DNA of 64,000 nucleotides, taken from the NCBI RefSeq assembly GCF_900142365.1, contig NZ_FRAP01000015.1, positions 124,001-188,000 on the forward strand, given 5' to 3'. Within the stretch, counting starts at the first letter, position 1; each line of letters starts with the position of its first letter. Below the pieces are notes generated by a model. That model did not search any database, was not told the DNA's origin, and was given only the letters and a program-made list of their open reading frames with translations. The DNA is from Pseudonocardia thermophila. Its GTDB lineage: Bacteria; Actinomycetota; Actinomycetes; Mycobacteriales; Pseudonocardiaceae. Below, in pieces: positions 46,501-64,000 of this stretch. The position numbers and the translations under genes are program-made.

Positions 46501-46514
46501 GTGCGTTCCTCCGT

Positions 46515-47354: not shown

Positions 47355-47475
47355 TCTCCGACCGTACGTCGTGACCTGGCTGTGACCTAGAGTTCGACGA
47401 GATCTCTGCCCGGATGCCGCAAAGAATCCGGTGCCCATCCGGTGTCCGGACGCCGCGGAGGGCCGTCCGGGCGCC

Positions 47476-49610: not shown

Positions 49611-50477
49611 TCAGCCGGCGAGCACCTTCTTCACGGTCTCGGCGAACTCGGCGGGTCTGCCCGCGTAGCCGTGCTCCCCGTCGAGGAACCCGCCGTGGTG
49701 GCTGGGGAACACCGTCACCTCCAGCCCCAGCGCCGCAGCCGTGGCGAACCCGGTGCGCCCGGTGAAGGTGTTGCCGGTCTCCTCCCCGACGCCGACGACG
49801 ATCCGGGTCGGCGCGGCCTTGAGCGCGCCCGCGTCGAGCCGGTAGTCGATCACCGGCACGGACCGGTCGGAGAGCAGCGGGTCGTCGCGGGTGCCGTCGT
49901 CCTCGACGGGCAGGCCGAACCCGGCCGGATCGGCGGGCCCGGCCGCGAAGTACGCGTCGGTGAACTCACCCTCCCACGACGTCATGCGGATGAACTCGGC
50001 CATCCCCGCCCCGAACCCGCGCTCGGCGTAGGCGGCGCGGAACCCGGCGGCGGCCCGCTCGGCGGCCGCGGCGTCGGGGAGCACGTTGATCAGCGGCGGC
50101 TCGTGCGCCACCAGCGTGACGACGTCCTCGGGGTGCGCGGTGACCAGCGCGAGCCCGGTCACGGCACCCCCGCTGCTGCCGAACACCTCAACCGGACCGG
50201 CGCCCAGGTGGGCGACGAGGGCGTGCAGGTCCGCGGCCTGGGTGTCCGGCACGTTCGTCACCAGCCCGTCCGTGCGGACGCTGCGGCCGAGGCCGCGCGG
50301 ATCGTAGGTGATGACGGTGCGGTCGGTCATGTGCGCGGCGAGTGCGGCGAACCCGTCCGCGCACATCGGCTGGCCGATCAGCAGCAGCGGCGGGCGGCCG
50401 TCGGCGGTGGGCAGGGGGCCGTGCACGTCGTAGGTGAGGCCCACGCCGGGCAGGGAGAGCACGTGCGTCGTCGTCAT
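49611..50477 (-). CDS. Alpha/beta-hydrolase
   Basis: 288 residues: LPGVGLTYDVHGPL, TYDPRGLGRSVRTDGL, elbow VEVFGSSGGAVTGLAL with Ser near residue 99, and a C-terminal His in FPSHHGGFLDGEHGYAGRP. The layout resembles small esterases or epoxide-hydrolase-like proteins. It lies 130 bp beyond the last gene of the large catabolic region and after its terminator, so it is probably a separate unit. Confidence 0.82.
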   Translation of the reverse strand: MTTTHVLSLPGVGLTYDVHGPLPTADGRPPLLLIGQPMCADGFAALAAHMTDRTVITYDPRGLGRSVRTDGLVTNVPDTQAADLHALVAHLGAGPVEVFGSSGGAVTGLALVTAHPEDVVTLVAHEPPLINVLPDAAAAERAAAGFRAAYAERGFGAGMAEFIRMTSWEGEFTDAYFAAGPADPAGFGLPVEDDGTRDDPLLSDRSVPVIDYRLDAGALKAAPTRIVVGVGEETGNTFTGRTGFATAAALGLEVTVFPSHHGGFLDGEHGYAGRPAEFAETVKKVLAG

Positions 50478-50607: not shown

Positions 50608-52074
50608 TCAGCCCCGGCTGGTCGGGCGGTGCAGGTAACCACCGGCGCGCTCGCCGACGACCTTGCGATCGGCCAGGACCTGGCGGCCGCGGACGAAGGT
50701 GTCGGTGACCGCGGCGGTCATCTCGAAGCCCTCGAACGGCGTGTACTCCTGGGTCGATTCGGAGTCGGCCGCCCGCACCGTCCACGTCAGGTCCGGGTCG
50801 ACCAGCGCGATGTCGGCGTCGTAGCCCACCTGCAGCGCGCCCTTGGTGCGCAGACCGAACCGCTGCGCGGGGTTCCAGGAGGTGAGCTGAGCGATGCGCT
50901 GGTAGGACAGGCCCCGCTTGCGGCCCTCGGTGATGAGGCCGGGCAGGAGGTACTCCGTGCCGCCGAACCCGGACTTGGCCAGGAACACGTCGTCGCGCGG
51001 GTCGCCGAACTTCATCTCGTCCCGGCAGCAGGCGTGGTCGCTGACCACCCAGTCGAGATCGCCGGCGAGCAGGTGCCGCCACAGCGCCTCGACGTCCTCC
51101 CGCGGCCGCAGCGGCGGGTTGACCTTGCCGCCCAGGCCGTGCGCGGTGTCGACGTCGGCCAGCAGGTGACCGATGGTGACCTCGCGGCGGAAGTCGACGT
51201 GCGGGAACGCCTCCGCCATCCGCAGCGCCGCATCGACGGCCTTCGCCGAGGACAGGTGCAGCAGGTTGATGTTCGACAGCCCGGTCTCGTGGGCCAGGTA
51301 GGAGGCGATGGTGATGGCGAGGCCCTCCGAGTGCGGCGGCCGCGAGGCCGAGTAGGCCGCCAGGCCGGACAGGGAGCCGTCGGCCTCCACCATCCTGGTG
51401 TACGCGGACATGATCTCCGCGGTCTCGCAGTGCAGGCTCAGCGAGATGACGTCCGCCAGCTCGGGGAACTTCTCCCGCGCGGCCTGGATGCCCCGCATCA
51501 CGAACTCGAAGTGGGCGTAGTCGTAGCGCTCGTCCGGCGGGGTCATGAGGAACGAGCTCTGGTCGGAGGAGCGGCCGTGCAGGCCGTGCCCGCCGTAGAA
51601 CATGAAGATCTTGAACGAGGTCACGCCGAACCGCTCGACGAGCGTCGGGATCTCGTCGATGTGCTTGCGCATCATCGGGGCCACGTGGAAGCCGTAGTCC
51701 ACGAGGGCCCGCCCCTCGGACGCGGACAGCACCTCGGGGAAGAACTCCTCGTACGGGCCGCTCTTGTTGAGGTAGTACTGCCCGGTGCGCACGTAGTTCA
51801 GCGCGGTGGTGACGCCGCCCTGGGCGCACGCCCGGCTCTCGGACTCGGTGTCCTCGGTGAGCGGGTTGTAGATGCCCCAGTGCTGGTGGGCGTCCACCAC
51901 GCCGGGGAAGGCGAGCTTGCCGGCGGCATCGACGACCGTCTCGGCCTGGTCGGCGGGGATCGCCGGGGCGAGCCGGACGATCTTCCCGCCGGACACGCCG
52001 ATGTCGAGCCGCTCGGGGTCCGGCCGGTCGTGGCCGACGACGAGGGCGTTGGTGACGATCAGGTCCAGGGACAC
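50608..52074 (-). CDS. Dihydropyrimidinase/hydantoinase-family amidohydrolase
   Basis: 488-residue metal-dependent cyclic amidohydrolase. Metal and catalytic residues look complete: VVDAHQHWG (HxH), carboxylated Lys in TSFKIFMFYGG, His in SLHCETAEI, His in INLLHLSSAKA and Asp in WVVSDHACC. The group opens cyclic amides or imides such as hydantoins and dihydropyrimidines; the true substrate is not readable. It is the last gene of the unit starting with IclR and lies 10 bp after the PrpD gene. Confidence 0.85.
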   Translation of the reverse strand: MSLDLIVTNALVVGHDRPDPERLDIGVSGGKIVRLAPAIPADQAETVVDAAGKLAFPGVVDAHQHWGIYNPLTEDTESESRACAQGGVTTALNYVRTGQYYLNKSGPYEEFFPEVLSASEGRALVDYGFHVAPMMRKHIDEIPTLVERFGVTSFKIFMFYGGHGLHGRSSDQSSFLMTPPDERYDYAHFEFVMRGIQAAREKFPELADVISLSLHCETAEIMSAYTRMVEADGSLSGLAAYSASRPPHSEGLAITIASYLAHETGLSNINLLHLSSAKAVDAALRMAEAFPHVDFRREVTIGHLLADVDTAHGLGGKVNPPLRPREDVEALWRHLLAGDLDWVVSDHACCRDEMKFGDPRDDVFLAKSGFGGTEYLLPGLITEGRKRGLSYQRIAQLTSWNPAQRFGLRTKGALQVGYDADIALVDPDLTWTVRAADSESTQEYTPFEGFEMTAAVTDTFVRGRQVLADRKVVGERAGGYLHRPTSRG

Positions 52075-52084
52075 GGGTTCCTCC

Positions 52085-53500
52085 CTAGGCGGACAACCGG
52101 GCGAGCAACGGGCCGACCGCGGGGACCTCGTCGAGCGCGAGCACGGCCCGCTCGACCTCGGCGGCGACCTGCGGGCCGATGCGCCCGGCGGCGTTGTCGC
52201 GGAACTTGCGGGCGAGCTCGGCGTCCGACAGGGGACGCTTCGGCCCGCCGCGGTTGGCCAGCACCTCCTCCACCCATTCCCGGCCGTCCTTCGTCGTCAC
52301 CGACAGCACGGCCGGGAACTGGTACGGGAAGATCTCGTCGCAGCGCGGATCGGGGACGACCTCGACCTTGGCCATCAGCTCGCGGCGGGCGGGGTCGGCG
52401 GCGAGCTCGTCGGTGTAGTCGGACAAGGCCGCGCCGAGGCCGGACCCGCCGAACAACCCCACCGTGACCGCGTACGGCCCGGAGAACTGCGCCTGGTAGC
52501 CGGTCTGCGGGGCGCGCTTGACCTCGATCGGCTCCCCGATCGTGCGGATCACGGCCGACGGCACACCCAGCCGCACGGACCGGACGTCCTCCGGCCGCAC
52601 CCCGCGCTCGCGCAGCCGGGCGGCGGCGTCGACGGTGGTGTGGGTGAAGTGGTTGGCGGGGTACGGCTTGAAGAAGATGCCCGGCACCTCCCAGCGCTCA
52701 CCCAGCCCGTCCCGGATCGCCGCCGGGTCGAACCGGTCGCGGATCCACGCCTGGAAGAACCCGAAGCGGCCCTCCAGCACGGTCGGCGGGCCGGTGAAGC
52801 CGCGGCGCACGAGCTGCGCGGCGGTGACGGCGGAGTGCGCGGCCCAGCCGCAGTGCAGCCGCTTCACGGTGCCGCCGGTGCGGTTGGCCTCGATCACCCC
52901 GGAGGCCATCGAGGCCACCACGCCGAGGGCGTTGCGCACCCCGTCCTCGCCGAGGTTCAGCAGCAGCGCGGCCGCGACCGCGCCCCCCATGGCGCCGCAG
53001 ATGGACGTCGCGTGCTGGCCGTGCTCGAAGAACACCGAGTTGCCGAGCTCGGTGTCGTACCCGGCCATGCCGAGCCGGACGGTCGTCTCCAGACCGACGG
53101 CGATCGCGCGGACCGTCTCGGCGCCCGTGCTCCCGGCGAGCTCGGCCGCGGCCAGCGCGGCGGGGACGACCGCCGCGCTGGGGTGCAGCACGGAGGGCAG
53201 GTGGGTGTCGTCGTAGTCGAGGGAGTGGGCGGTGACCCCGTTGGCGAACGCCGCCCAGGCGGCGGGCACGGGTTCGGCGAGCCCGACGGCGTGCGCCTGG
53301 GGTCGGCCGCCCTGCTCGGCCACGTGCTCCAGCGCGGCCTTGCTGGTGGGCAGGTCCGCAGCGGCCACGCACAGCCCGAGCACGTCCAGCACCCGCTGGC
53401 GGACGCTCGTGGTCACGTCGTCCGGGAGCGACCCGGCCATCGTCTTGGCCGCGAACGCCGCGAGCTCCTCGGCGAGGGTCGGCCCAGATGGTTCAGCCAT
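52085..53500 (-). CDS. MmgE/PrpD family protein
   Basis: 471 residues with the MmgE/PrpD pattern: AFANGVTAHSLDYDDTHLPSVLHPSAAVVPAAL, HATSICGAMGGAVAAALLLNL, KRLHCGWAAHSAVTAAQL and ITDRFDPAAIRDGLG-like segments. Known members dehydrate 2-methylcitrate or decarboxylate cis-aconitate/iminodisuccinate-type acids, all small carboxylates. The start overlaps the cyclase end by 8 bp. It probably acts on an acid product of the pathway. Confidence 0.84.
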   Translation of the reverse strand: MAEPSGPTLAEELAAFAAKTMAGSLPDDVTTSVRQRVLDVLGLCVAAADLPTSKAALEHVAEQGGRPQAHAVGLAEPVPAAWAAFANGVTAHSLDYDDTHLPSVLHPSAAVVPAALAAAELAGSTGAETVRAIAVGLETTVRLGMAGYDTELGNSVFFEHGQHATSICGAMGGAVAAALLLNLGEDGVRNALGVVASMASGVIEANRTGGTVKRLHCGWAAHSAVTAAQLVRRGFTGPPTVLEGRFGFFQAWIRDRFDPAAIRDGLGERWEVPGIFFKPYPANHFTHTTVDAAARLRERGVRPEDVRSVRLGVPSAVIRTIGEPIEVKRAPQTGYQAQFSGPYAVTVGLFGGSGLGAALSDYTDELAADPARRELMAKVEVVPDPRCDEIFPYQFPAVLSVTTKDGREWVEEVLANRGGPKRPLSDAELARKFRDNAAGRIGPQVAAEVERAVLALDEVPAVGPLLARLSA

Positions 53501-54338
53501 CGCTCACCACCGCCAGCGGACGGATCGGCGAGCCGGTCGCCCCGTGCAGGGCGAGCGGGCTGGCCAGGAAGACGAACTCGTGCACCCCGGCTGCCGCCAG
53601 CTCCTCCAGCGCCAGCGCCTCGATGATGTAGATGCCGTGCTCCACCAGCAGGACGCGGTGGGCGGGCAGCAGCGCGTGCCCCGCGCCGGGGGCGAGCCGC
53701 TCGAACGCGATCGTGTCGGCGCCCGCGGCGTGCACCTGCCGGTCGGCCAGCCAGCGCGCGCCGGCCTCGGACACGCCGGGCACCCCCGACTCGTGGCCGA
53801 TGTAGACGTTGCGGTCGGGGTCGTCGAAGTGCCGGCCCCAGCCGCTGCGGACGAGCACGACGTCGCCGGGCCCGATCGGCGTCTGCTGCCGGGCCACGGC
53901 GGCGTCGAGATCGGCCGGGCTGATCTCGTAGCCCGGGGCGCAGTAGCGCTCGCCGATGGCCGCCGGGACGTCCAGCAGCACACCGCGGCGCACCATCGGC
54001 GCGATGGTGTGCGCCCCCAGCTCCTCGTACTTCCCGCCGACCCCGGCCGCGACCGCGTCGGCGCCGCCGTAGAGCTTGCCGTCCTGGGAGACGTGCGCCA
54101 GCGCGTCGATGTGGGTGCCGACGTGCGTGCCCATCGAGATGAGGTCGTTCGCGGCCGACCCGCCGTCGGCGCGCACCCGGTCGCCGTGCCGCCGCGGCAG
54201 CGTGTGCCAGTACGGCGGGTGGTTCGGCGACTGGGGCATCCCGATGGTCAGCGGTCTGCCCAGGTCGAAGATCCGCACGCCGGCGGTGACCGCGCGCAGG
54301 AGCGGATCGTCGACCCTTCCCCCGATCGTGTGAGTCAT
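53493..54338 (-). CDS. Cyclase family (kynurenine formamidase-like) metal-dependent hydrolase
   Basis: 281 residues. The family metal motif is MGTHVGTHIDALAHV (HxGTHxDxxxH), with VLVRSGWGRHFDDPDR and the start RIFDLGRPLTIGMPQSPNHP. Members hydrolyse formamides, lactones or isatin-like rings using Zn or Mn. All visible ligands are kept. It lies 40 bp after the CoA-transferase gene and overlaps the PrpD gene. Confidence 0.86.
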   Translation of the reverse strand: MTHTIGGRVDDPLLRAVTAGVRIFDLGRPLTIGMPQSPNHPPYWHTLPRRHGDRVRADGGSAANDLISMGTHVGTHIDALAHVSQDGKLYGGADAVAAGVGGKYEELGAHTIAPMVRRGVLLDVPAAIGERYCAPGYEISPADLDAAVARQQTPIGPGDVVLVRSGWGRHFDDPDRNVYIGHESGVPGVSEAGARWLADRQVHAAGADTIAFERLAPGAGHALLPAHRVLLVEHGIYIIEALALEELAAAGVHEFVFLASPLALHGATGSPIRPLAVVSDG

Positions 54339-54378
54339 GCTTCCCTTCGCTCTCTGGCCAGGTCCGACGTTCCGCGCC

Positions 54379-55611
54379 TCACCGGACGATCTGCCGCCTG
54401 CGCAGTTCGGCCACCGTCTGCGGGTCGTAGCCGAGCTCGTCGACCAGGACGGCGTCGGTGTCGGCGCCGAGCGAGCGTCCGGTGAACCGGATCGACCCCG
54501 GCGTCTGCGACATCCGCCACATCACGTTGTGCATCAGCACGGGGCCCAGGTCCGGGTCGTCCACCGTCGTGAGCATCTCGGTGGCCCGGACGTGCTCGTC
54601 GTTGACGATGTCGCGGGCGTCGTAGATGGGGGCCACTGCGGCGCCGGCCTCGGTGAACTCCTTGATGACCTCGTCGCGGGTGCGTTCGGCGATCCAGCTG
54701 CCGACGTACTCGTCGAGCTCGTCGGCGTGCTCGGCGCGCTGGGCGCCGGTGGCGAACCACGGCTCGTCGACCACCTCGGGGTGTCCGACGAGGCGGAGCA
54801 CGCGCTCGGCGATCTGGTTCGCGCTGGTGGAGATCGCGACCCACCGGCCGTCCTTGGTGCGGTAGGTGTTGCGCGGCGCGTTGTTCGTCGAGCGGTTGCC
54901 GTGGCGGTGCCCGACGATCCCGAGCTGGTCGTACTCGATCGGCCCGGGGCCGACCGCGGTGAGGATGGGCTCCAGCAGGCTCATGTCGATGATCTGCCCG
55001 GAGCCGCCGCCGTTGTCGCGGTGGTAGAGGGCCATGGCGGTCGCCGACGACGCGGCGATCCCGCAGATGCTGTCCGCGAGCCCGAAGGCCGGCAGCGTCG
55101 GCGGACCGTCCGCCTCACCGGTCAGGTGCGCGAACCCGCTCATCGCCTCGGCCAGCGTGCCGAAGCCGGCCCGCTGCGCGTACGGGCCCTTCTGGCCGAA
55201 CCCGGTGACCCGGACGATGATCAGGCGAGGGTTGACCTCGTGCAGCTTCTCCGGTCCGATGCCCCACCGCTCGAGCGTTCCCGGGCGGAAGTTCTCCACC
55301 ACGACGTCGGCGGTCTCGGCGAGCCGGAGGAACACCTCGGCCCCTTCCGGCTGCGACAGGCTGAGGCCGATCGTGCGCTTGTTCCGGGAGATCTCCTTCC
55401 ACCACAGCGGGTGGCCGTCCTTGGCCTTTCCGTGGCCCCGCATGTTGTCCCCGGCGACCGGGTGCTCGATCTTGATCACGTCCGCGCCGAAGTCGCCGAG
55501 GATCTGGCAGCACAGCGGACCGGCCAGGATCGTGGACGCGTCGATCACCCTGATCCCGGCCAGTGGGCCGCGGGGGCGGGCGCCGTCAGCGGGCTCGGTC
55601 ATCTCGGTCAT
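54379..55611 (-). CDS. CaiB/BaiF family CoA-transferase
   Basis: 410-residue type III CoA-transferase: LAGIRVIDASTILAGPLCCQILGDFGADVIKIE, VVENFRPGTLERWGIG, RVTGFGQKGPYAQRAGFGTLAEAMSGF, and RDEVIKEFTEAGAAVAPIYDARD. At the usual catalytic Asp site (G-[FY]-D) this protein has G-F-G, seen in some subgroups, so the acyl carrier may be elsewhere. It should move CoA to a carboxylic acid. ATG 55611 overlaps the IclR stop by one base (TGATG). Confidence 0.85.
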   Translation of the reverse strand: MTEMTEPADGARPRGPLAGIRVIDASTILAGPLCCQILGDFGADVIKIEHPVAGDNMRGHGKAKDGHPLWWKEISRNKRTIGLSLSQPEGAEVFLRLAETADVVVENFRPGTLERWGIGPEKLHEVNPRLIIVRVTGFGQKGPYAQRAGFGTLAEAMSGFAHLTGEADGPPTLPAFGLADSICGIAASSATAMALYHRDNGGGSGQIIDMSLLEPILTAVGPGPIEYDQLGIVGHRHGNRSTNNAPRNTYRTKDGRWVAISTSANQIAERVLRLVGHPEVVDEPWFATGAQRAEHADELDEYVGSWIAERTRDEVIKEFTEAGAAVAPIYDARDIVNDEHVRATEMLTTVDDPDLGPVLMHNVMWRMSQTPGSIRFTGRSLGADTDAVLVDELGYDPQTVAELRRRQIVR

Positions 55612-56417
55612 CACGCTCCAAGTGCCTTCTGCGGACGGTGTCCCAGCTCCGCACTGACTTCTCTGGCGGTCTTGGCCACGAGCTCCCCGTGGGACCGGAA
55701 CACCGCTGGGCCGAACCGATCCAGTGGCCCGCACAACGAGATCGATCCGAAGACGTCGCCGCCCACGGTGAACACCGGGGCGGCGACGCTGCCCGCTCCG
55801 GACTGCCGCTCACCCAGGCTGGTCGCGTAGCCGACCTCGCGGATGCGGGTGATCTCGGCCCGCAGCTCCGCGCGCGAGGTGATCGTCGCCCCGGTGATCG
55901 ACGTGAGCGGGCGGGAGTCGAGGTACTCCTGGATCTCCTCGTCGCTCAGGGCGGCGAGGATCGCCTTGCTGGAGGATCCCGCGTGCAGCGGGTGGGACGT
56001 GCCGAGCGGGACCGACATCCGGATCTCGTGCGGCGAGAGCACCTGGTCGATGTAGACGCGTTCCCAGCCCTGCCGCACCGACAGCGTGGCCGTCTCCCCG
56101 GTCTCCTGGACGAGGCGCCGCAGGTAGGGACGGGCCAGCACGGGCACGTCGAGCCCACGCAGGGCGGCCATCCCCACCCGCAGCGCCCCCGGTCCGAGGT
56201 GGTAGTGCTTGGTCGACTCGTCGACCCGGAGGAAGGCCAGCGCCACGAGCTCCTTCAGGATGCGGTGCGCAACGGTCTTGGGGAGCTGGAGCTCGCGCGA
56301 GACAGCCGATACGCCCATACCGTCGGGTGAGCTCTCGGCGAGCAGGTTGATCACGCTGACGGCCCGGGCGAGCCCGGACCGCGAGTCCGGCTCGGTCATC
56401 TCGGCCGCATCGGGCAT
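55611..56417 (-). CDS. IclR-family regulator of the catabolic cluster
   Basis: 268 residues with an IclR winged helix (MGVSAVSRELQLPKTVAHRILKELVAL) and effector domain (ETGETATLSVRQGWERVYIDQVL, HPLHAGSSSKAILAALSD, GSVAAPVFTVGGDVFGSI). ATG 56417 follows GAGGAGGGGG. It heads the downstream unit right after a strong hairpin and is translationally coupled to the CoA-transferase. It probably controls the whole region in response to a pathway acid. Confidence 0.85.
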   Translation of the reverse strand: MPDAAEMTEPDSRSGLARAVSVINLLAESSPDGMGVSAVSRELQLPKTVAHRILKELVALAFLRVDESTKHYHLGPGALRVGMAALRGLDVPVLARPYLRRLVQETGETATLSVRQGWERVYIDQVLSPHEIRMSVPLGTSHPLHAGSSSKAILAALSDEEIQEYLDSRPLTSITGATITSRAELRAEITRIREVGYATSLGERQSGAGSVAAPVFTVGGDVFGSISLCGPLDRFGPAVFRSHGELVAKTAREVSAELGHRPQKALGA

Positions 56418-56442
56418 CAGTTCCCCCTCCTCAGTACCTGCG

Positions 56443-56480
56443 CCGGTCCCGGGCGGCACGGCACCGCCGCCCGGGACCGG
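56443..56480 (-). terminator. Perfect 15-bp hairpin between OsmC and IclR genes
   Basis: CCGGTCCCGGGCGGC (56443-56457) and GCCGCCCGGGACCGG (56466-56480) pair fully around an 8-nt loop, directly after the OsmC stop. It divides an apparently continuous gene row into two transcription units and leaves only about 25 bp for the IclR promoter, which may overlap the hairpin. Confidence 0.8.
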
Positions 56481-56921
56481 TCACGCGGCTCCGTGCGACT
56501 CGATCTCCACGGGCGCACCGCTGCGCAGCGCGTTCGAGTACGGGCACGCCTGGTGCGCCGCCTCGACGAGCTCCGCCAGCGTGTCCTGAGGGCACTCCGG
56601 CGCGCGGACGGTCAGCTTCACGCTGATGCCGAAGCGCGTCTCGGTGTGCTGGAGCAGCGACACCGCCGCGGTCACCGTCGACGGGCCCAGCTTCACCCGG
56701 GCGCGACGGGCCGCTGCCGCCAGAGAGGCGTCGAAGCACGCGGCGTAGCCGGCGGCGAACAGCTCCTCCGGGTCCGTCTTGGCCTCGGTCCCGCGCTCGG
56801 CGGGGCGCGCCAGGTCGACCTCCAGGCTGCCGGTCTGCGACGTGGCGTGGCCGGCAGCGCGGCCGCCGGTCACCTCGACGACCGCGGTGTAGAGGACCTT
56901 CGGCTCGGCCGTCGTGCTCAT
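56481..56921 (-). CDS. OsmC/Ohr-family protein in catabolic operon
   Basis: 146 residues. Both redox Cys are present (GYAACFDASL near 62, HQACPYSNALRSG near 128), as in Ohr. It begins KVLYTAVVEVTGGRAAGH. It is a second Ohr-type protein besides the one at 37.6 kb and has no OhrR next to it. ATG 56921 overlaps the hydrolase stop (ATGA) and has GGAGG. It may protect against peroxides formed by the pathway or act on a pathway intermediate. Confidence 0.83.
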   Translation of the reverse strand: MSTTAEPKVLYTAVVEVTGGRAAGHATSQTGSLEVDLARPAERGTEAKTDPEELFAAGYAACFDASLAAAARRARVKLGPSTVTAAVSLLQHTETRFGISVKLTVRAPECPQDTLAELVEAAHQACPYSNALRSGAPVEIESHGAA

Positions 56922-57751
56922 CGTGCACCTCCGCTCAGGGTGGCTGTCTCGCGCAGGACGTAGCGCGCAAGCTCCTCGGCGAACGCTTCGGGCTGCTCGT
57001 CCATGACGAAGTCCGTTCCGTCCGGGATGGTCACCAGCCGGGCGTTCGGCAGTGCGGCGGTGACCTGGGGGGTGAACCGGTCGACCAGGTCGTCGGACCC
57101 GTGCAGGAGCAGCACGGGGAACGTGTCGAGCCGCTCGGTGTCCACCCGGTAGTCGAAGACGGCGCGGTAGGCAGTGGCGTAGTCCGGTCCGGTGCTCAGG
57201 TACTCGATGAGCTGCCGGTCGGTCTCCGCGACGCCCAACCTCGGGTAGAGCCTGCGGATGCGGTCCCGGATGACGCCGATGTGGCTGCCGTCCTCGGCCG
57301 GCTCGTAGGCCGGTGCGTAGCTGCGCTTCTTCTCCTCGCGCTCCTCGTCGCTGTAGAGCGGCAGACCCTGCAGCACCAGCCCGTCGATCCGCTCGGGCTG
57401 CTGGAAGGCCGCCTCGGCGGCGATCACCGCGCCGGTGTGCTGGCCGAGCAGGTGCACCTTCCCGAGGCCCAGCAGGTCCGCCACCTGCCACACCGCACGG
57501 GCGTAGTCCGGGATCGTCCACTGCTCGGGCGTCGGGTCCGACATCCCGAAACCGGGCGTGTCCAGCGCCACCATCCGCACGCCGCGGCGGACGACCGGTT
57601 CGATGACGGCCTCGAAGGTGGCCGACGACAACGGCGACTGGTGCAGGGCCAGCACCGTGGGCGCGGTCGGGTCCCCACCGCAGCGGTAGTGCACCTGTCC
57701 CCAGGGGGCTCGGACGTAACCGCGCTCCGAGCTCCCGCGCAAGCTCCTCAC
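56918..57751 (-). CDS. Alpha/beta-hydrolase homologue lacking the nucleophile Ser
   Basis: 277-residue alpha/beta-hydrolase fold: LALHQSPLSSATFEAVI, VALDTPGFGMSDPTPEQW and LLLHGSDDLVDRFTPQ. The elbow expected as GxSxG reads LLGQHTGAVIAAEA, with His at the nucleophile position. GTG 57751 overlaps the stop of the M20 gene (GTGA), and its own stop overlaps the OsmC start. It may use His, be a lyase or binding protein, or be inactive; the DNA clearly encodes GQHTG. Confidence 0.82.
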   Translation of the reverse strand: MRSLRGSSERGYVRAPWGQVHYRCGGDPTAPTVLALHQSPLSSATFEAVIEPVVRRGVRMVALDTPGFGMSDPTPEQWTIPDYARAVWQVADLLGLGKVHLLGQHTGAVIAAEAAFQQPERIDGLVLQGLPLYSDEEREEKKRSYAPAYEPAEDGSHIGVIRDRIRRLYPRLGVAETDRQLIEYLSTGPDYATAYRAVFDYRVDTERLDTFPVLLLHGSDDLVDRFTPQVTAALPNARLVTIPDGTDFVMDEQPEAFAEELARYVLRETATLSGGAR

Positions 57752-59136
57752 TTCTGCTCTCCCATCGCTGCCATCACTTCGATGACGTGCTTGATGCCGA
57801 GCCGGTAGTCCTCGAGGCGGATGTGCTCGTTGGGCCCGTCGATCCCGGAGTCGGCCCGGGACACGCCCACCCCGACGATCGGCAGGTCGCCCAGGACGCC
57901 CTGGTTGCCGATCCACTGGGTGTACGGCTCGATGACCGGGTCGATCCCGTACGCGCGCTTCGCGGCCTCGGCCACGAGGTGCACGAACGGGTGGCGGTGG
58001 TCGGTCTGGTTCGGCCGGCTGGTCGCCATCACGTCGATCTCGACGTCCGCGTAACCGCTGCGCTCCAGGTGCCGCCGGATGGCCTCGAGCACCTCCTCCG
58101 GTTCCTGCCCGGGGATGAGCCGCACCTCGACCTTGGCCGAGGCGACCGCGGGGATGCCGAGCGTGACGTCGTCGCGGTCGTCACCGCCGGACAGGCTCGC
58201 GATCGTGATCGTCGGGCGCGTCCGGATCAGCACCGCGGCCTGCCGGTCGTCGACGTCGCCGAGGAACGAGTCCACCTGAGCGCGGCGCCGCAGGAAGTCG
58301 CCGTCGAACTCGACCTCGCCGAGCAGCTCGACCTCAGCCGGGCTGGGCTCGCGGGCCCCGTCGTAGAAGCCGGGGACCAGCACGGTCCCGTCCGGGCGCA
58401 CCAGGCAGGACAGGGCGGCGATCAGCCGGGTGGTCGCCGAGGGCAGCAGTACGGTGTTCTGGCTGGTCAGCTCGCGCGGCAGGGTGCGCACCCTCAGGCG
58501 GAGGTAGAGGATGCCCTTCTCCGCCAGCTTCAGCAGCGGACGGCCGGTGCCGTCTCGCCACGAGTTCTCCCACAGCGCCGCATCGGCCGCCACCCGGTCC
58601 GCGTGGGCGGCCACGAACGAGCCCAGCCCCGGCGAGTGCAGCCACTGCTTGCCCTCGATGATGAACCGGTTGGTCACCGGCGGGGTCACCCCGGCCAGCT
58701 TGAACGCGGCCACCGCGTGCAGGCGGGACATGATCGCGCCCTTGTCGTCGGCGACACCGCGGGCGTACAGCTTCCCGTCGTGGATCTCCGCCGCGTAGGG
58801 CGGCGAGATCCAGTCCGAGTCGTCGCCCGCGGGCTCGACCTCGACGTCGTAGTGGGTGAAGTGGAGCAGCCGCTTGGGCCCGCCGGGGGCCTCCCCGAGC
58901 ACGTACGGGTGGGAGTCCTCCCACGGGATGACCTCGGCCTCACCTCCCCAGCGGCGCACCGACTCGGCGAGGAACTCCGCGGTGGCCTTCATCTGGTCGG
59001 GCTCCTGCCGACGGCTGCGGAACCGGCAGAGCTCCTGCAGCTCTGCGACGAAGGTGTCGAAGTGCTCGTCCACGGCCCGCAGGGCAGCGTCGACAGCGCT
59101 GCGATCGACCACGCTCGAGGACGCGGTGCCGGTCAC
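57748..59136 (-). CDS. M20 family peptidase homologue lacking the catalytic Glu pair
   Basis: 462 residues with the M20 fold: LLHFTHYDVEVEPAGDDSDW (first metal ligand region), LYARGVADDKGAIMSRLHAV (Asp ligand), and VEVRLIPGQEPEEVLEAI in the dimerisation domain. The segment that normally reads EGEEE(I/V)GSP, with the catalytic and metal Glu, reads IEGKQWLHSP. The family's hydrolysis mechanism should therefore be lost or changed. GTG 59136 has GGGAGG upstream. It lies 14 bp after the SDR gene. Confidence 0.85.
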   Translation of the reverse strand: MTGTASSSVVDRSAVDAALRAVDEHFDTFVAELQELCRFRSRRQEPDQMKATAEFLAESVRRWGGEAEVIPWEDSHPYVLGEAPGGPKRLLHFTHYDVEVEPAGDDSDWISPPYAAEIHDGKLYARGVADDKGAIMSRLHAVAAFKLAGVTPPVTNRFIIEGKQWLHSPGLGSFVAAHADRVAADAALWENSWRDGTGRPLLKLAEKGILYLRLRVRTLPRELTSQNTVLLPSATTRLIAALSCLVRPDGTVLVPGFYDGAREPSPAEVELLGEVEFDGDFLRRRAQVDSFLGDVDDRQAAVLIRTRPTITIASLSGGDDRDDVTLGIPAVASAKVEVRLIPGQEPEEVLEAIRRHLERSGYADVEIDVMATSRPNQTDHRHPFVHLVAEAAKRAYGIDPVIEPYTQWIGNQGVLGDLPIVGVGVSRADSGIDGPNEHIRLEDYRLGIKHVIEVMAAMGEQK

Positions 59137-59150
59137 TAAACCTCCCAGGA

Positions 59151-59915
59151 TCAGTGGATGGTGACGCCGCCGTCGACGAAGATCGTCTGTCCGGTGATCA
59201 TCCCGGCGGCGGGGCTGAGCAGGTAGGCGACGGTGTCGGCGACGTCGGTCGCCTCGGCCATCCGGCCCAGCGGGATGGTGGCCAGCTTCTCGGCCAGGTA
59301 CTCGGGGTCCGCTCGGACGTCCGCGGTCATGTCGGTCGGCACGATCGTGGGGCCGACCGCGTTGACCCGGATCCCGGCCTGTGCCCACTCCAGCGCGAGC
59401 ACCCTGGCCAGGTGCATCACACCGGCCTTGCTCACGCAGTAGCCGACGGTGTCGCGCACGGCGACGTGGCCGTTCGTGGAGCCGATGTTGACGATCGACC
59501 CCCTGGCCACCGCCAGCGGGGCGTAGGCCGCGCGGCACATGCGGAACGTGCCGGTCAGGTTCACGTCGAGGACGGTGGTGAAGTCCTCGTCGGTCGTCTC
59601 CGCCGCCGGGCCGCGCCGGACGATGCCGGCGCCGTTGACCAGGTGGTCGAGCCGACCGTGCGCGGCCACCACCTCGTCGACCACGGCCTGGCAGGACTGC
59701 GTCGAGCGGACGTCCAGGCGGTGCCGGGTGTGCGGCGCACCCAGGCCGACCGTCCACTCCGACTCGGGCAGCACGTCGGCCAGCGCGACCACCGCACCCC
59801 GGGCGGCGAGGGTCTGCGCGACCGCCGCACCGATTCCGCGGGCACCTCCCGTCACGAGCGCGACCCGCCCGGCGAAGGAGTTCGGGTCGGCCGGTCGGCC
59901 GGTGGCATCGGTCAT
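59151..59915 (-). CDS. SDR family oxidoreductase
   Basis: 254-residue short-chain dehydrogenase: VTGGARGIGAAVAQTL, NGAGIV, Ser in NIGSTNGHVA and the YCVSKAG motif, ending MITGQTIFVDGGVTIH. It probably oxidises or reduces an alcohol/ketone in the pathway with NAD(P). ATG 59915 overlaps the permease stop by 4 bp. The frame is open upstream, but that part overlaps the permease gene. Confidence 0.86.
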   Translation of the reverse strand: MTDATGRPADPNSFAGRVALVTGGARGIGAAVAQTLAARGAVVALADVLPESEWTVGLGAPHTRHRLDVRSTQSCQAVVDEVVAAHGRLDHLVNGAGIVRRGPAAETTDEDFTTVLDVNLTGTFRMCRAAYAPLAVARGSIVNIGSTNGHVAVRDTVGYCVSKAGVMHLARVLALEWAQAGIRVNAVGPTIVPTDMTADVRADPEYLAEKLATIPLGRMAEATDVADTVAYLLSPAAGMITGQTIFVDGGVTIH

Positions 59916-60763
59916 GCAGCGATCACCCGGCTCTCCTCCGCCCAGAAGGCGAACTTGCGCTGGGCGAACCGGATGATGAAGTGCGCGATGAGGCCCAGCA
60001 CCGACAGGACGATGAGCACGGCGAACATGCCAGCGATGTCGAAGTTGTAGTTCGTCTGCAGGAGCAGGTAGCCGAGTCCTTCCTTCGCCCCGATGAACTC
60101 GCCGACGACGGCACCGAGGATCGAGAACACGATGCCGATGTCGAGGCCGGCGAAGATGAACGGCATGGCGCTGGGCAGCCGCACCATCCGGAAGATCTGC
60201 AGTTTGCTGGCGCCGAAGACGGTCAGCATCTGGATGCGGTCCGCGTCGGCGGCGCGGAGTCCCTCGATGACGTTCACCAGCATCGGGAAGAAGGAGATGA
60301 CCGCAGCCATCACGATCTTGCTGGTGATGCCGAAGCCGAACCACACCACGAACAGCGGCGCCAGGGCGACCTTGGGCACGGTCTGGAACGCCACGATGTA
60401 GGGCATCAGGGTCTTCTCGACCAAAGACACCTGAGAGATCGCCGTGCCGAGGACGAGTGCGGTTCCCACGCCGATGAGGAACCCGATGATGGACTCGCGG
60501 ACGGTGACTTCGAGGTGCTGCCAGAACAACGCGTTGCCGAGCTGCTGGCCCAGCGCCTCCACGATCCGCGACGGCCGCGGCAGCACGTAGTCGCCGATCC
60601 CCAGCAGCGGGATGAGGAACTCCCACGCCGCCACGAGTACGACGAACACGGCGGGAACCAGGATCAGCTCCGGCCGTTCGCGGAGGTCGAAGCGCTTGCC
60701 GCGGGTCGGCTTCGCTGGCGCCACCTCGTCGGTGACCTCGTCCGCTGCAGGTGCGGTGGTCAT
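59912..60763 (-). CDS. ABC transporter permease (nitrate/sulfonate/taurine type)
   Basis: 283 residues, six transmembrane helices, starting with ERPELILVPAVFVVLVAAWEFLIPLLGIGDYVLPRPSRI, typical of SsuC/TauC/ThiX permeases. The ATPase loop is VIEGLRAADADRIQMLTVFGA. It forms an importer with the ATPase and binding protein upstream. ATG 60763. Confidence 0.87.
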   Translation of the reverse strand: MTTAPAADEVTDEVAPAKPTRGKRFDLRERPELILVPAVFVVLVAAWEFLIPLLGIGDYVLPRPSRIVEALGQQLGNALFWQHLEVTVRESIIGFLIGVGTALVLGTAISQVSLVEKTLMPYIVAFQTVPKVALAPLFVVWFGFGITSKIVMAAVISFFPMLVNVIEGLRAADADRIQMLTVFGASKLQIFRMVRLPSAMPFIFAGLDIGIVFSILGAVVGEFIGAKEGLGYLLLQTNYNFDIAGMFAVLIVLSVLGLIAHFIIRFAQRKFAFWAEESRVIAA

Positions 60764-60779
60764 GATCCCCCCTCGGACC

Positions 60780-61607
60780 TCAGTCGATGACGCTGGCGTT
60801 GAAGTGGCGGCGGATGCGGTCGACGTAGACGCCGGCCCGGTCGCTGGACATCACGCTCAACTCGCGCGGGCGATCGAGGTCGATGTCGATGATCTCGGCG
60901 ATGCGGCCGGGGCGCGGGCTGAGCACGATGACCCGGTCGGAGAGGAAGACGGCCTCCGGGATCGAGTGCGTCACCAGCACGATGGTCTGGCCGCTCTCCG
61001 CCCAGATCCGCAGCAGCTCGACGTTCATGTACTCGCGCGTCATGGCGTCGAGCGCGCCGAACGGCTCGTCCATCAGCAGCACGGCCGGGTCGTGGACCAG
61101 CGCCCGGCAGATCCCGGCGCGCTGCTGCATGCCCCCACTCAGCTCGTAGGGGTAGCTGTTCTCGAACTCGGCGAGGCCCACCATGCGCAGCAGTTCGCGG
61201 GCCCGTTCGCGGTAGCGGTTCTTGTCCAGCCCCTGCACCTCGACCGGGACCATGACGTTCTGCAGGACGGTGCGCCAGGGGAGGAGCGTCGCGGCCTGGA
61301 ACACCATCCCGACCTGCGGCAGCGGTCCCGTGACGTCGGCACCGGCGATCCGCACCTCGCCGGACGAGCGTTTGACGATGCCCGCGAGGATCTTCAGCAA
61401 GGTGGTCTTGCCGCATCCCGACGGTCCGACGACGGAGATGAACTCGCCGCGCCGCACCGAGAACGTGATGTCGGACAACGCATGGGTCGGAGCGGACCGG
61501 CGGGCCTGGTAGACCTTGTTCAGGCTCGCGATGTTGATCCACTTCTCTTCGTCCGCCGGCACGGAAGCCGTGTCGACGTCCGGGCGTCCGGTGGTTCGCA
61601 GGCTCAC
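60780..61607 (-). CDS. ABC transporter ATP-binding protein (nitrate/sulfonate/taurine type)
   Basis: 275 residues: Walker A VVGPSGCGKTTLLKIL, Q-loop VFQAATLLPW, signature LSGGMQQRAGICRAL, Walker B VLLMDEPFGALD, His loop LVTHSIPEAV. SsuB/TauB-like length. GTG 61607 has GAGGAGA upstream. It powers the importer of the catabolic operon. Confidence 0.88.
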   Translation of the reverse strand: MSLRTTGRPDVDTASVPADEEKWINIASLNKVYQARRSAPTHALSDITFSVRRGEFISVVGPSGCGKTTLLKILAGIVKRSSGEVRIAGADVTGPLPQVGMVFQAATLLPWRTVLQNVMVPVEVQGLDKNRYRERARELLRMVGLAEFENSYPYELSGGMQQRAGICRALVHDPAVLLMDEPFGALDAMTREYMNVELLRIWAESGQTIVLVTHSIPEAVFLSDRVIVLSPRPGRIAEIIDIDLDRPRELSVMSSDRAGVYVDRIRRHFNASVID

Positions 61608-61639
61608 GACGTCTCCTCTTCTCCCAGGACCAGACCCGG

Positions 61640-62755
61640 TTACGGCTGGTACTCGGCAGCCTGCTTGAGCACGAGCTGGGCGTCGAAGTCGTTGGCGGCC
61701 TCGAGCAGGCTCGGGTCCCAGACGCGGTCGAGCGGGATCTCGGCGTTGATCTGGCCGGCTTCCTTGGTGTAGGCCTGGGTCTTGGCCCACTCCTCGTCGG
61801 TGATGTCGCCCCAGCTCTTCCAGTCGGCCGGCTCACCCTGCAGCGGAGTGGCCGACTCCAGCCACTTCTCCAGCGTCTTGGTGTCTGAATCGATTCGGCT
61901 CGCCGGGTCAGCACCACCGAGGATCTGCGGGAAGACCTCGTAGCCCATCTGCATCGCGGCCTTCGGGTTGGCCGCGGAGAACAGCATGGACTTGTAGGCG
62001 GCGCGCAGGAACCGGACGAACTTCTCGCGGTCCTGGTCGAGCTCGCGCTGCGAGGCGCCGAAGCTGAGCGAGCGGATGCCCTGGAAGACCGGCGGGTTGT
62101 CCAGGTAGCGCAGCTGCGTGCCGGCCAGTTCGATGATCGTGTACGCCTGGCCGTACAGCGCGAGCGCGTCGACCTCACCGTTGGTGAGCGCAGCGGTCGC
62201 CTGTGCACCGACGCCCACCGGCACGAGCTCGACGTCCACGTCGGGCTGCAGGCCGGCGTCCCGGATGAACGCCCGGGCGTACGGAGCGGAGCCGGACGCG
62301 AGGCTGATCACGCCGACCTTCTTGCCCTTGAGGTCGGCGCCGCTGCGGATCGGGCTGTCCGGCAGCACCGCGATCTGCCACGGCCAGTTCTGCACCAGGC
62401 CACCGATCGTCTTGATGGGCACGTTGCCCTGGACCGCGGCGAGCAGCGATCCGGTGTCGGCGGGGGTGATGTCCGCGCTGCCCGAGGCGACCGCCTGGGC
62501 GGCGGCGACCGATCCGTCGGCGTTGATCGTGTCGACGGTCAGGCCCTCCTCGGCGAAGTAGCCCATCTTCGTGCCGACGGCGACGATGGCCACCTCCTCC
62601 TTGGGGCCGGTCACTGCCGACGCGATCGCGACCGTGATCTTGTCGTCGCCCGCCTCGCCGGCTGCGGCGCCGCCGCTCTCGGCTCCACCGCCGCATCCGG
62701 CGAGCAGCAGGGTTCCCGCGGCGGCGAAGGCCGCCAGTCGTCGTATGTGCTTCAT
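61640..62755 (-). CDS. ABC transporter substrate-binding lipoprotein (NMT1/SsuA-like)
   Basis: 371 residues. Signal peptide RRLAAFAAAGTLLLAGCGGG with lipobox Cys near residue 21. The mature part fits the NMT1/SsuA fold (GYFAEEGLTVDTINADGSVAAAQAVASGSADI, LKGKKVGVISLASGS). Such proteins bind sulfonates, nitrate, pyrimidines or aromatic acids; the ligand should be the pathway substrate. ATG 62755 overlaps the NTF2-like stop (ATGA). Confidence 0.86.
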   Translation of the reverse strand: MKHIRRLAAFAAAGTLLLAGCGGGAESGGAAAGEAGDDKITVAIASAVTGPKEEVAIVAVGTKMGYFAEEGLTVDTINADGSVAAAQAVASGSADITPADTGSLLAAVQGNVPIKTIGGLVQNWPWQIAVLPDSPIRSGADLKGKKVGVISLASGSAPYARAFIRDAGLQPDVDVELVPVGVGAQATAALTNGEVDALALYGQAYTIIELAGTQLRYLDNPPVFQGIRSLSFGASQRELDQDREKFVRFLRAAYKSMLFSAANPKAAMQMGYEVFPQILGGADPASRIDSDTKTLEKWLESATPLQGEPADWKSWGDITDEEWAKTQAYTKEAGQINAEIPLDRVWDPSLLEAANDFDAQLVLKQAAEYQP

Positions 62756-63177
62756 GGCGCGGTCTCCAGGGTGTCTTCGTGGTGGTTGGCCGTGTCCATG
62801 GCGGCGACGACCGCCAGGTCGTTGTAGACGTGCTGCTCCGCGATGCGGTCTCCGCGGAGGACGAAGATGTCGACGAACCGCACCCCGCTGAAGGGGCTGC
62901 CGTCCAACCATTCGCCGGTGAGCGTTCCCCGGCAGATCACGATGCTGCGACCGGGTGCCTCACCGGGAGCGACGACGTAGTCGCGCACGGGTTTGCGGGC
63001 CCATCGGTACCTCGTCCTCGCGTCGGCGACCATCGCGGCGAGATCGCGGTACTCGACCCCGCCGGGGAAGACGAGGCGGGCGTCCTCGGTGAGGATGGCA
63101 CCCGCCTCGTCGAGCCGTCGTTCCTCGCAGAGGTCGAGGTAGCGATCCACCCGAGCAGCAGCTGGGTGGAGCGGCAT
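62752..63177 (-). CDS. NTF2-like (SnoaL-type) protein
   Basis: 141 residues: VDRYLDLCEERRLDEAGAILTEDARLVFPGG, VICRGTLTGEWLDGSPFSGVRFVDIFVLRGDRIAEQHVYND. It has the NTF2 cone fold with Asp/His residues that could serve acid-base catalysis as in SnoaL cyclases or ketosteroid isomerase, but these cannot be assigned. ATG 63177 overlaps the stop of the unknown gene by one base (TGATG); a GTG 3 bp earlier is possible. Confidence 0.78.
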   Translation of the reverse strand: MPLHPAAARVDRYLDLCEERRLDEAGAILTEDARLVFPGGVEYRDLAAMVADARTRYRWARKPVRDYVVAPGEAPGRSIVICRGTLTGEWLDGSPFSGVRFVDIFVLRGDRIAEQHVYNDLAVVAAMDTANHHEDTLETAP

Positions 63178-63521
63178 CACTCGGCCTTCGAGTTCAGCGC
63201 GTCCTCCCACTGCCTGCGCAGCGGGTGCTCGGCCGGACCGTCCTCGGTGATGATGCGGATCAGCCGGTTGGTCAGGCCGTTCTTCTCGCGGTCGAGGACC
63301 TGCGCCTCGTCCTCCGACGGGCGGAACTGGTCCACCTCACCGGCCTTCAGCACCCCGTGGCGGACCAGCAGCGCCTCGAGCGCGCGCTCGCGCTGCCGGC
63401 TCACGTGCACCTCGGTCGCCAGCTGCAGGACCAGGTCCAGCAGCTTGGACACCTGCCGGTCGCGCAGGTAGTCGAACTCGGTGGTCAGCTTGCCTTCTTC
63501 GCGGACGAATGCGACGGACAT
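63177..63521 (-). CDS. Hypothetical protein of the catabolic operon
   Basis: 114 residues, not recognised. Mostly helical and charged: VREEGKLTTEFDYLRDRQVSKLLDLVLQLATEVHVSRQRERALEALLVRHG, then KAGEVDQFRPSEDEAQVLDREKNGLTNRLI. No transmembrane helix, Cys or catalytic motif. ATG 63521 has GAGGAG upstream. It lies 11 bp after the methyltransferase and is coupled to the NTF2-like gene, so it may be a small subunit of a pathway enzyme. Confidence 0.75.
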   Translation of the reverse strand: MSVAFVREEGKLTTEFDYLRDRQVSKLLDLVLQLATEVHVSRQRERALEALLVRHGVLKAGEVDQFRPSEDEAQVLDREKNGLTNRLIRIITEDGPAEHPLRRQWEDALNSKAE

Positions 63522-63532
63522 GCCGACTCCTC

Positions 63533-64000
63533 TCAGGCCTTGGTGGCCGACAGCACGGCCCACGGGAAGTGCCATTCCGGACGGTGGCCCCAGCCCTGCG
63601 GCCGCACGCCCTCGGCCCGCTCGTCGAACGGGGTCCAGCGCGCGTCGGTGAGCCCGGCCTCCTCGCACATGCCGACGGTGTCGGCCCCGAACAGGTCGCG
63701 GAAGAAGGGTTCGTTGTTGCGCTCGGCGTGCCCGTAGACGGTCGCGTCGCGGATCACGTCGCCGGTGGGCATGAACTCCAGGAAGGCCACGGTGCCGCCC
63801 GGCTTGAGCAGGCGCGCCGCCTCCTGGATGGTCTCCCGGATGACCTGCTCCGGCATCTCGTGCAGCAGCATCGTGCCGGTGACCACGTCGCAGGTGCCCG
63901 ATTCCACGCCGGTGTGGCGCGCGTCGGCCTGGCGGTAGGTGATGTCCAGGTCCTCGGCCCGTGCCTCGAGGTGGGCCAGCCGCAGGCCGGGCGCCGCGAG
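63533..64000 (-). CDS. SAM-dependent methyltransferase, C-terminal part (cut by window edge)
   Basis: The minus-strand frame is open to the window edge. The visible 155 residues hold the later methyltransferase segments: LDITYRQADARHTGVESGTCDVVTGTMLLHEMP, RETIQEAARLLKPGGTVAFLEFMP and FFRDLFGADTVGMCEEAGL. This is a class I fold, as in ubiquinone/sterol-type or natural-product methyltransferases. It is the first visible gene of the row of at least fifteen; the operon may extend further beyond the edge. Confidence 0.82.
   Translation of the reverse strand, partial: LAAPGLRLAHLEARAEDLDITYRQADARHTGVESGTCDVVTGTMLLHEMPEQVIRETIQEAARLLKPGGTVAFLEFMPTGDVIRDATVYGHAERNNEPFFRDLFGADTVGMCEEAGLTDARWTPFDERAEGVRPQGWGHRPEWHFPWAVLSATKA

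Follow-up and report, generated by a model that had tools for sequence, protein, structure and literature searches.

A conserved one-strand gene row in Pseudonocardia thermophila and its likely role in the breakdown of an imported ring compound

The gene row and its conservation

The stretch of 64,000 nucleotides from Pseudonocardia thermophila analysed here, which we call the window, comprises bases 124001-188000 of contig C16 (NZ_FRAP01000015.1) in a genome of 6.1 Mb, and carries a row of genes which most likely imports a ring compound, opens it and passes the fragments on to central metabolism by way of a widespread core of enzymes. Fifteen genes follow one another on the minus strand, from a methyltransferase that is cut by the end of the window to a cyclic amidohydrolase, with gaps, in turn, of 11, -1, -4, 32, 16, -4, 14, -4, -4, 63, -4, 40, -8 and 10 bp, as measured from start codons that we picked among the open reading frames. 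A tight one-strand row of fifteen or more genes had been noticed in an earlier reading of the letters alone (hereafter the sequence-only reading), and the spacing of -8 to +63 bp bears this out; the 2838 bp of contig that remain beyond the window end hold the rest of the methyltransferase and, in the same direction, an OYE-type (old yellow enzyme) flavoenzyme as a sixteenth gene. The family assignments of that reading agree with Pfam; the upstream OYE, and a CitE-like lyase that often accompanies the core elsewhere and is absent here, lay beyond its view. The members, with the short names used below (L, C and G numbers being loci, contigs and genomes), and the next gene downstream are:

L009:2630-4717, same direction as the row, just past the window: OYE-type flavoenzyme, 695 aa, preceding the methyltransferase
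63533..64000, minus strand, stop at 63533, full gene 603 bp further (L009:1533-2603): S-adenosylmethionine-dependent methyltransferase (MT), 356 aa; Methyltransf_25, E 3e-21 on the full protein
63177..63521, minus strand: helical protein (hel), 114 aa, of no known family
62752..63177, minus strand: NTF2/SnoaL-like protein (NTF2); SnoaL_2, E 1e-7
61640..62755, minus strand: NMT1-type solute-binding protein (SBP); NMT1, E 9e-33; lipoprotein signal seen by eye
60780..61607, minus strand: ABC importer ATPase (ATP); ABC_tran, E 6e-33
59912..60763, minus strand: ABC importer permease (perm); BPD_transp_1, E 3e-32
59151..59915, minus strand: short-chain dehydrogenase/reductase (SDR); adh_short_C2, E 3e-65; YxxxK present
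57748..59136, minus strand: M20-fold homologue (M20; Pfam Peptidase_M20) without the canonical catalytic and second-metal residues
56918..57751, minus strand: alpha/beta-hydrolase-fold homologue (abh1; Abhydrolase_1) with His at the nucleophile position (GQHTG)
56481..56921, minus strand: Ohr/OsmC-family peroxiredoxin (OsmC; Pfam OsmC); TIGR03561, 125.5 bits, cut-off 88.85
55611..56417, minus strand: IclR-family regulator; IclR_C, E 5e-40
54379..55614, minus strand: type III CoA-transferase (CoAT), core; CoA_transf_3, E 7e-121
53493..54338, minus strand: PF04199 cyclase-family metal-dependent hydrolase (cyclase), core; Cyclase, E 4e-31
52085..53500, minus strand: MmgE/PrpD-family enzyme (PrpD), core; PF03972, E 3e-58, and PF19305, E 6e-39
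50608..52074, minus strand: cyclic amidohydrolase of the hydantoinase/allantoinase/dihydroorotase group (Hyd), core; Amidohydro_1, metal-ligand motifs kept
49611-50477, downstream, 130 bp from Hyd: alpha/beta hydrolase (abh2), 288 aa

The gene row is a genuine unit, conserved also among actinobacteria that are only distantly related. In three genomes, probably of the Micromonosporaceae (L038-L040), the order OYE, MT, hel, NTF2, SBP, ATP, perm, SDR, M20, abh1 and OsmC is kept and continues with IclR, CoAT, cyclase, PrpD and Hyd; an EamA-type transporter, found also in L081 and L083, sits between OsmC and IclR, and a CitE-like gene follows Hyd. In Blastococcus (L080) every member is contiguous on one strand in an order that differs from that of the window, OYE-SBP-ATP-perm-SDR-OsmC-IclR-CoAT-cyclase-PrpD-Hyd-CitE-MT-hel-NTF2-M20-abh1. 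The sequence-only reading had proposed such a unit and had named homologues scattered and never co-occurring as what would speak against it; the gene-order search in other actinobacteria found the opposite. The ends of the fetched stretches cut through the set in a Pseudonocardia metagenome-assembled genome (MAG; L078), two Micromonospora (L081, L083), Acrocarpospora (L100), a Streptomyces (L103) and Nocardioides carbamazepini (L148), each of which shows part of it. Less of it is seen in two Actinomadura (L085, L086). The named loci are the best 80 of at least 416 confirmed matches and lean to close relatives; they carry 10 kb per side. In all relatives genes were called with a simple composition-based caller, and presence was scored at hand-set identity thresholds. 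After removal of 5 duplicates, 3 loci whose Hyd fell short of 60% identity and 1 that had no Hyd, 111 of 120 loci were retained for counting. Two neighbouring control genes, abh2 and a trypsin-like protease (46515-47438), gave no tblastn match in these 111 loci (E 1e-8, more than a quarter of the protein), while the order is kept in the three Micromonosporaceae genomes, which argues that the row is not due to chance; having no homologue in related loci, abh2 is not counted as a member.

Single-protein searches of 298 genomes of the order place the same genes together. At E 1e-90 for the M20 homologue and E 1e-50 for SBP, the matches lie in the same 4 genomes, the window's included. At E 1e-3, hel is found in 6, namely the window's, three with strong matches of E 1e-35 or better and two with weak ones (E 1.6e-4 and 6.7e-4). 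The strong hel matches fall in the same four genomes as M20 and SBP, inside the cluster; the three genomes other than the window's that hold the full set belong to one family and two of them are close relatives, so that they do not count as independent. About 3 kb separate one of the weak hel matches from the Hyd of the same genome, G087. The helical protein itself has no Pfam match at E 0.001, its homologues (57-63% in 4 loci) always stand directly after the methyltransferase, and the methyltransferase homologues of L038-L040 and L080 are at 67-73%. The two other sampled genomes of the window's genus gave no match to Hyd, cyclase, M20, SBP or hel at these thresholds, so that the cluster is accessory in the genus. 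In a quick tree, the window Hyd is sister to the Hyd of a Pseudonocardia MAG. Hyd was rejected as a marker of a single origin of the full cluster, as full-cluster Hyds stand in several places of this tree (111 rows, weak backbone support), on which the single change reported counts only against the five importer-plus-Hyd Streptomyces rows, with 93 rows uncounted.

A core with many front modules

The 3' part of the row belongs to a wider core that consists of the type III CoA-transferase, the PF04199 cyclase, MmgE/PrpD and the cyclic amidohydrolase, often with a CitE/RipC-like lyase. Within the fetched stretches of the 111 loci, CoAT is present in 95, IclR in 81, the CitE-like gene in 78, PrpD in 77 and the cyclase in 76, and among the 90 loci that span 19 kb or more, 53 have CoAT, cyclase, PrpD and CitE together. 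Among loci from the window's own order, most of them with about 15 kb of 5' flank, 32 of 36 have CoAT, cyclase and PrpD all near Hyd. At E 1e-60, Hyd is found in 37 and the cyclase in 40 of the 298 genomes of the order, with 36 genomes sharing both, 1 with Hyd alone and 4 with the cyclase alone (Fisher p 1e-40, relatedness ignored). Phylum-wide, Hyd at E 1e-150 occurs in 6 of 198 genomes; apart from the window's, one belongs to its order and the remaining four to other classes.

Joined to this core are front modules of several kinds. Their Liv and Opp genes and several others are named by eye, as are the large and medium subunits of the molybdenum hydroxylase, of which the small [2Fe-2S] subunit alone was checked against Pfam. 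One module carries Liv-type ABC genes and comes with a second MmgE/PrpD in 29 loci, an Asp/Glu-racemase-family protein in 30 and a FAD_binding_2 enzyme in 43, as counted over all 120 loci, duplicates included. Others have Opp-type ABC genes with an arylmalonate-decarboxylase/EutA-like protein, DUF2848 and CMD, or MFS-type carriers. In four distinct loci, five with the duplicate (L046/L113, L079, L082, L154), molybdenum-hydroxylase-type genes, a SnoaL-like protein, an OYE and a protein of 117 aa stand before the core; a ureidoglycolate-lyase-like protein, named by eye, adjoins this variant at L046:15617-16207. Five loci from Streptomyces have the cognate importer, its ATPase at 78-79% and its permease at 79-82%, directly before Hyd. 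On the plasmid pDND3A of Rhodococcus gordoniae (L161, 385 kb), the core stands beside hydantoinase/oxoprolinase A and B (HyuA/HyuB-type), an amidase and an MFS transporter, and this copy indicates that the core can be plasmid-borne. The window genome has a second core on contig C13 (C13:28000-50732; L058, L177), with an Opp-type importer, another OYE, an abh1-type gene, an EutA/arylmalonate-decarboxylase-like protein, DUF2848 and, in divergent orientation, genes for an IclR regulator and for a CitE-like lyase, the latter at 54% to the query. As the core is joined to such differing front modules, it may be read as a lower pathway fed by various upper routes, and in that sense it resembles the lower pathway of the beta-ketoadipate route.

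Residues and relatives of the enzymes

Cyclic amidohydrolases have a binuclear metal site made up of HxH, a carboxylated Lys, two His and an Asp. The metal-ligand positions of Hyd align with those of allantoinases, and in 115 sequences the motifs HQHWG (108), FK[IV]FMFYG (113) and LHCE, N[LI]LHL and SDHACC (115 each) are found, so that Hyd is predicted to carry the metal site of this group; its solved relatives among those listed are of the cyclic amidase group, dihydropyrimidinase-related proteins included. As a named subtype it was rejected for allantoinase, D-hydantoinase, dihydroorotase and ErtD (231, 178, 198 and 192 bits against NCBIfam cut-offs of 358, 393, 452 and 650), and hence for a named function on allantoin, hydantoin, dihydroorotate or ergothioneine-derived hydantoin-propionate. 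The cyclase, with its motif HxGTHxDxxxH in 77 of 77 sequences, is remotely related to isatin hydrolase and kynurenine formamidase, and its nearest solved relative is the uncharacterised 5ibz. For PrpD, the closest relatives of known structure, and the best alignments, are those with IDS epimerase and cis-aconitate decarboxylase, and the residues D95, D97, T99, H106, H163, K213, H216 and K278, which align with both enzymes and place it in the MmgE/PrpD family, are invariant where covered (66-68 of 71 sequences; K213 67, K278 68); exact-string counts, which are too strict a measure, gave DYDDTH in 36, K.LH.GWA in 24 and KPYP in 68 of 71. It was rejected as a 2-methylcitrate dehydratase (78 of 950 bits for the NCBIfam equivalog). 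Characterised MmgE/PrpD enzymes act on 1,4-dicarboxylates (PMC12290011), and on these grounds a succinate-type intermediate is suggested. CoAT has as its nearest solved kin 9br7, a succinate-hydroxymethylglutarate CoA-transferase. The lyase of a relative (L041) is closest to the RipC and CitE models and below the cut-offs of all 3 NCBIfam models; it was rejected as the RipC of itaconate degradation (145 bits against a cut-off of 375).

In the front module, the sequence-only reading had named M20 and alpha/beta-hydrolase homologues; it needs correcting in that the canonical catalytic residues are missing from both, in every orthologue examined. M20 metallopeptidases depend on a Glu-Glu catalytic/metal pair, a C-terminal His metal ligand and a dimer-domain His. 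In alignment with Sso-CP2 and cytosolic dipeptidases, all 11 sequences have EGK[QKR][WMQ]LHSPG in place of EGxEE with its Glu-Glu pair, LTSQNT where the dimer-domain His would stand and G[IV]DGPNE where the C-terminal His ligand would, with the first-metal His/Asp motifs HYDVEVEP and RGV[AG]DDKG retained; the M20 homologue thus lacks the catalytic and second-metal residues of a canonical metallopeptidase. Serine-type alpha/beta hydrolases need a G-x-S-x-G nucleophile and a catalytic His. The nucleophile elbow of abh1 reads GQHTG in 11 and GRATG in 5 of 16 sequences, and TDF stands at the expected position of the catalytic His in all 16, so that this enzyme class does not fit abh1 either; HQSPLS, too, is found in all 16. 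Four distant abh1 homologues occur in the order, and the three inspected (L178, L179, L180) all have HTG in a GxHTG elbow; a Rieske-type oxygenase, a molybdenum-hydroxylase-type gene and a dipeptide-type importer were seen by eye among their neighbours. The OsmC protein passes the Ohr family cut-off. In Acrocarpospora (L100:4346-5587, 413 aa) and Streptomyces sp. AJS327 (L103:4204-5487, 427 aa) abh1 and the Ohr-type protein share one open frame, in which an internal start is possible, at least in L100, and the sharing of a frame in two genera suggests that the two work together. The SDR reached no cut-off among the best 25 of 234 NCBIfam matches.

A proposed pathway, its rivals and known systems

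The explanation towards which we lean is a catabolic operon composed of a specific front module and the shared core. The NMT1-type ABC importer would take up a ring compound or its precursor, and the OYE, SDR, SnoaL-like, methyltransferase, helical, M20-like, alpha/beta-hydrolase-like and Ohr-type proteins would process it. The amidohydrolase would open a cyclic amide of the lactam, imide or dihydropyrimidine/hydantoin type, and the PF04199 enzyme would take off a remaining amide or formyl group. MmgE/PrpD would isomerise, hydrate or dehydrate the resulting free succinate-type dicarboxylate, which the type III CoA-transferase would activate, and a CitE/RipC-like lyase would cleave the CoA-activated acid to an acyl-CoA and a 2-oxoacid. 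In the window genome another locus would have to supply the lyase; the second core on C13, whose lyase may provide the activity absent beside the cluster, is one candidate. Co-conservation, protein families and retained or replaced residues are observed; the order of steps, the substrate and its amide nature, and the products are what we infer. Counted in support, besides the conservation and the residues described above, are the variants with molybdenum hydroxylase, SnoaL-like protein and OYE, the HyuA/HyuB and amidase genes on pDND3A and the importer before Hyd in the five Streptomyces. The route of isonicotinate via citrazinate and tricarballylate offers a possible line of candidate substrates.

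Several points weigh against this operon. Among the 90 loci that span 19 kb or more, only 60 have CoAT, cyclase and PrpD together, partly as flanks end at 10 kb. Of the 36 loci from the window's order, 4 are without part of the core; two of these are short stretches (L063 and L066, 6 and 9 kb), and in the genomes of the other two (L070, L071) the same contig carries the cyclase at a distance of about 22 kb. In the stretches of the five Streptomyces loci (at most 10 kb on either side, with nothing beyond Hyd in L112) there is no CoAT, cyclase or PrpD. The window copy has no adjacent CitE-like lyase, and six lyase queries found no remnant there. Of the 60 NCBIfam models that match Hyd, 25 were listed, and it reaches the cut-off of none of these; as it and the relative's lyase both miss their cut-offs, the bond cleaved is also something we infer. 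No core enzyme with a tested function was found, and the proposed route does not account for Ohr, the helical protein and the methyltransferase. The ring opening and CoA activation that the sequence-only reading had suggested do fit the core and its variants with molybdenum hydroxylase and OYE; nitrogen in the substrate, which it gave as a possibility, is presumptive. Its single pathway holds insofar as the genes are co-conserved, though the core is a widespread module with many front ends, and not all fifteen genes need belong to one linear pathway. With a lesser but still appreciable probability the route is an undescribed one, in which the M20-fold and alpha/beta-hydrolase-fold proteins, the latter with Ohr, would carry out non-hydrolytic or new chemistry and feed an unrecognised lower pathway common to many actinobacteria. 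A literature search found no paper on this gene combination, as judged from titles, abstract starts and passages.

Of the rival explanations, the one that survives best, unlikely as we consider it, is a ring without nitrogen, in which Hyd and the PF04199 enzyme would act on lactones or cyclic esters of a carbocyclic, steroid- or bile-acid-like compound, with OYE, SDR, SnoaL-like protein and CoA-transferase as in bai. The bai operon does have OYE, SDR, SnoaL-like and type III CoA-transferase families, and the window OYE matches BaiCD (365 bits) and mycofactocin OYE 2 (584 bits), but these scores lie below both cut-offs (825 and 793), on which a bile-acid-like route was rejected; hydantoinase, PrpD and the PF04199 cyclase are not known to be part of the bai operon. 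The listed solved relatives of Hyd, all of the cyclic amidase group, and the molybdenum-hydroxylase and HyuA/HyuB-amidase neighbours in relatives also favour a nitrogen ring. More doubtful is the view that the transcript serves two separate pathways, transfer having brought an import/OYE/SDR/M20 module next to an independent core. It would account for the many other front ends of the core, for the block MT-hel-NTF2-M20-abh1 behind the core in L080 and for the scatter of full-cluster Hyds in the tree, but M20, SBP and strong hel matches occur only in genomes with the core, and all 10 of the loci with an M20 homologue, among the 111, also have CoAT, cyclase, PrpD and Hyd. Least probable is a system mainly of detoxification or metabolite modification (Ohr, methyltransferase, IclR), with the core turning over the modified metabolite rather than serving growth, since the Ohr protein above its family cut-off, its frame shared with abh1 in two loci and the methyltransferase are set against a dedicated importer, a CoA-transferase and a frequent CoA-ester lyase, which point to carbon use.

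Known systems resemble the proposed operon in part. Nicotinate hydroxylase is a molybdenum enzyme, and the variants L079, L082, L113 and L154, with molybdenum-hydroxylase-type genes and OYE before the core, recall the hxn genes of Aspergillus nidulans; the window cluster differs in having no molybdenum hydroxylase. Nicotinate breakdown by hxn joins hydroxylation, an OYE-type ring reductase, an SDR, opening of a cyclic imide and amide hydrolysis in one route, and the excerpted account (PMC9304392) gives no CoA transferase, MmgE/PrpD or lyase step; hxn serves as a parallel to the molybdenum-hydroxylase variants rather than as evidence of membership. The itaconate/methylsuccinate cluster (ict-ich-ccl, acyl-CoA dehydrogenase, MmgE/PrpD) likewise combines a CoA-transferase, MmgE/PrpD and a citramalyl-CoA-lyase-type enzyme on branched dicarboxylates, and ring opening and an importer are absent from the excerpt of its account (PMC12290011). 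Identity with that cluster was rejected, as the relative's lyase is below the RipC cut-off and the window cluster has no hydratase; nor does it have an acyl-CoA dehydrogenase. Hydantoin/dihydropyrimidine and allantoin catabolism share a cyclic amidohydrolase with the same metal-site motifs and, in the Liv-type variants of the core, an Asp/Glu/hydantoin-racemase-family gene, but Hyd misses the cut-offs of the named subtypes and stands with a CoA-transferase, an MmgE/PrpD enzyme and a lyase.

If the function of one such core were solved, this would account for a large number of actinobacterial annotations as 'dihydroorotase family', 'MmgE/PrpD', 'cyclase family' and 'CoA transferase'. The binding protein is a direct handle on the substrate, and the two hydrolase-fold families, with their consistently replaced catalytic residues, are defined test cases for new enzyme chemistry.

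Elsewhere in the window, no RNA families at gathering cut-offs and no tRNAs were found. The best hit of the six lyase queries across the window (E 0.011) lies near 13.8-14.3 kb, far from the cluster, and was rejected as a CitE remnant beside Hyd; three of the six queries match weakly there (tblastn, 13763-14290, E 0.01-0.08), possibly to a distant relative of the aldolase/lyase family. Downstream of the cluster, at 43617-47438, lie genes with MoxR-type AAA, vWA/BatA and trypsin-like domains. The G+C content, in 2-kb steps, is lowest over the importer genes (66.6% at 60001-62000), most steps of the window being at 71-76%.

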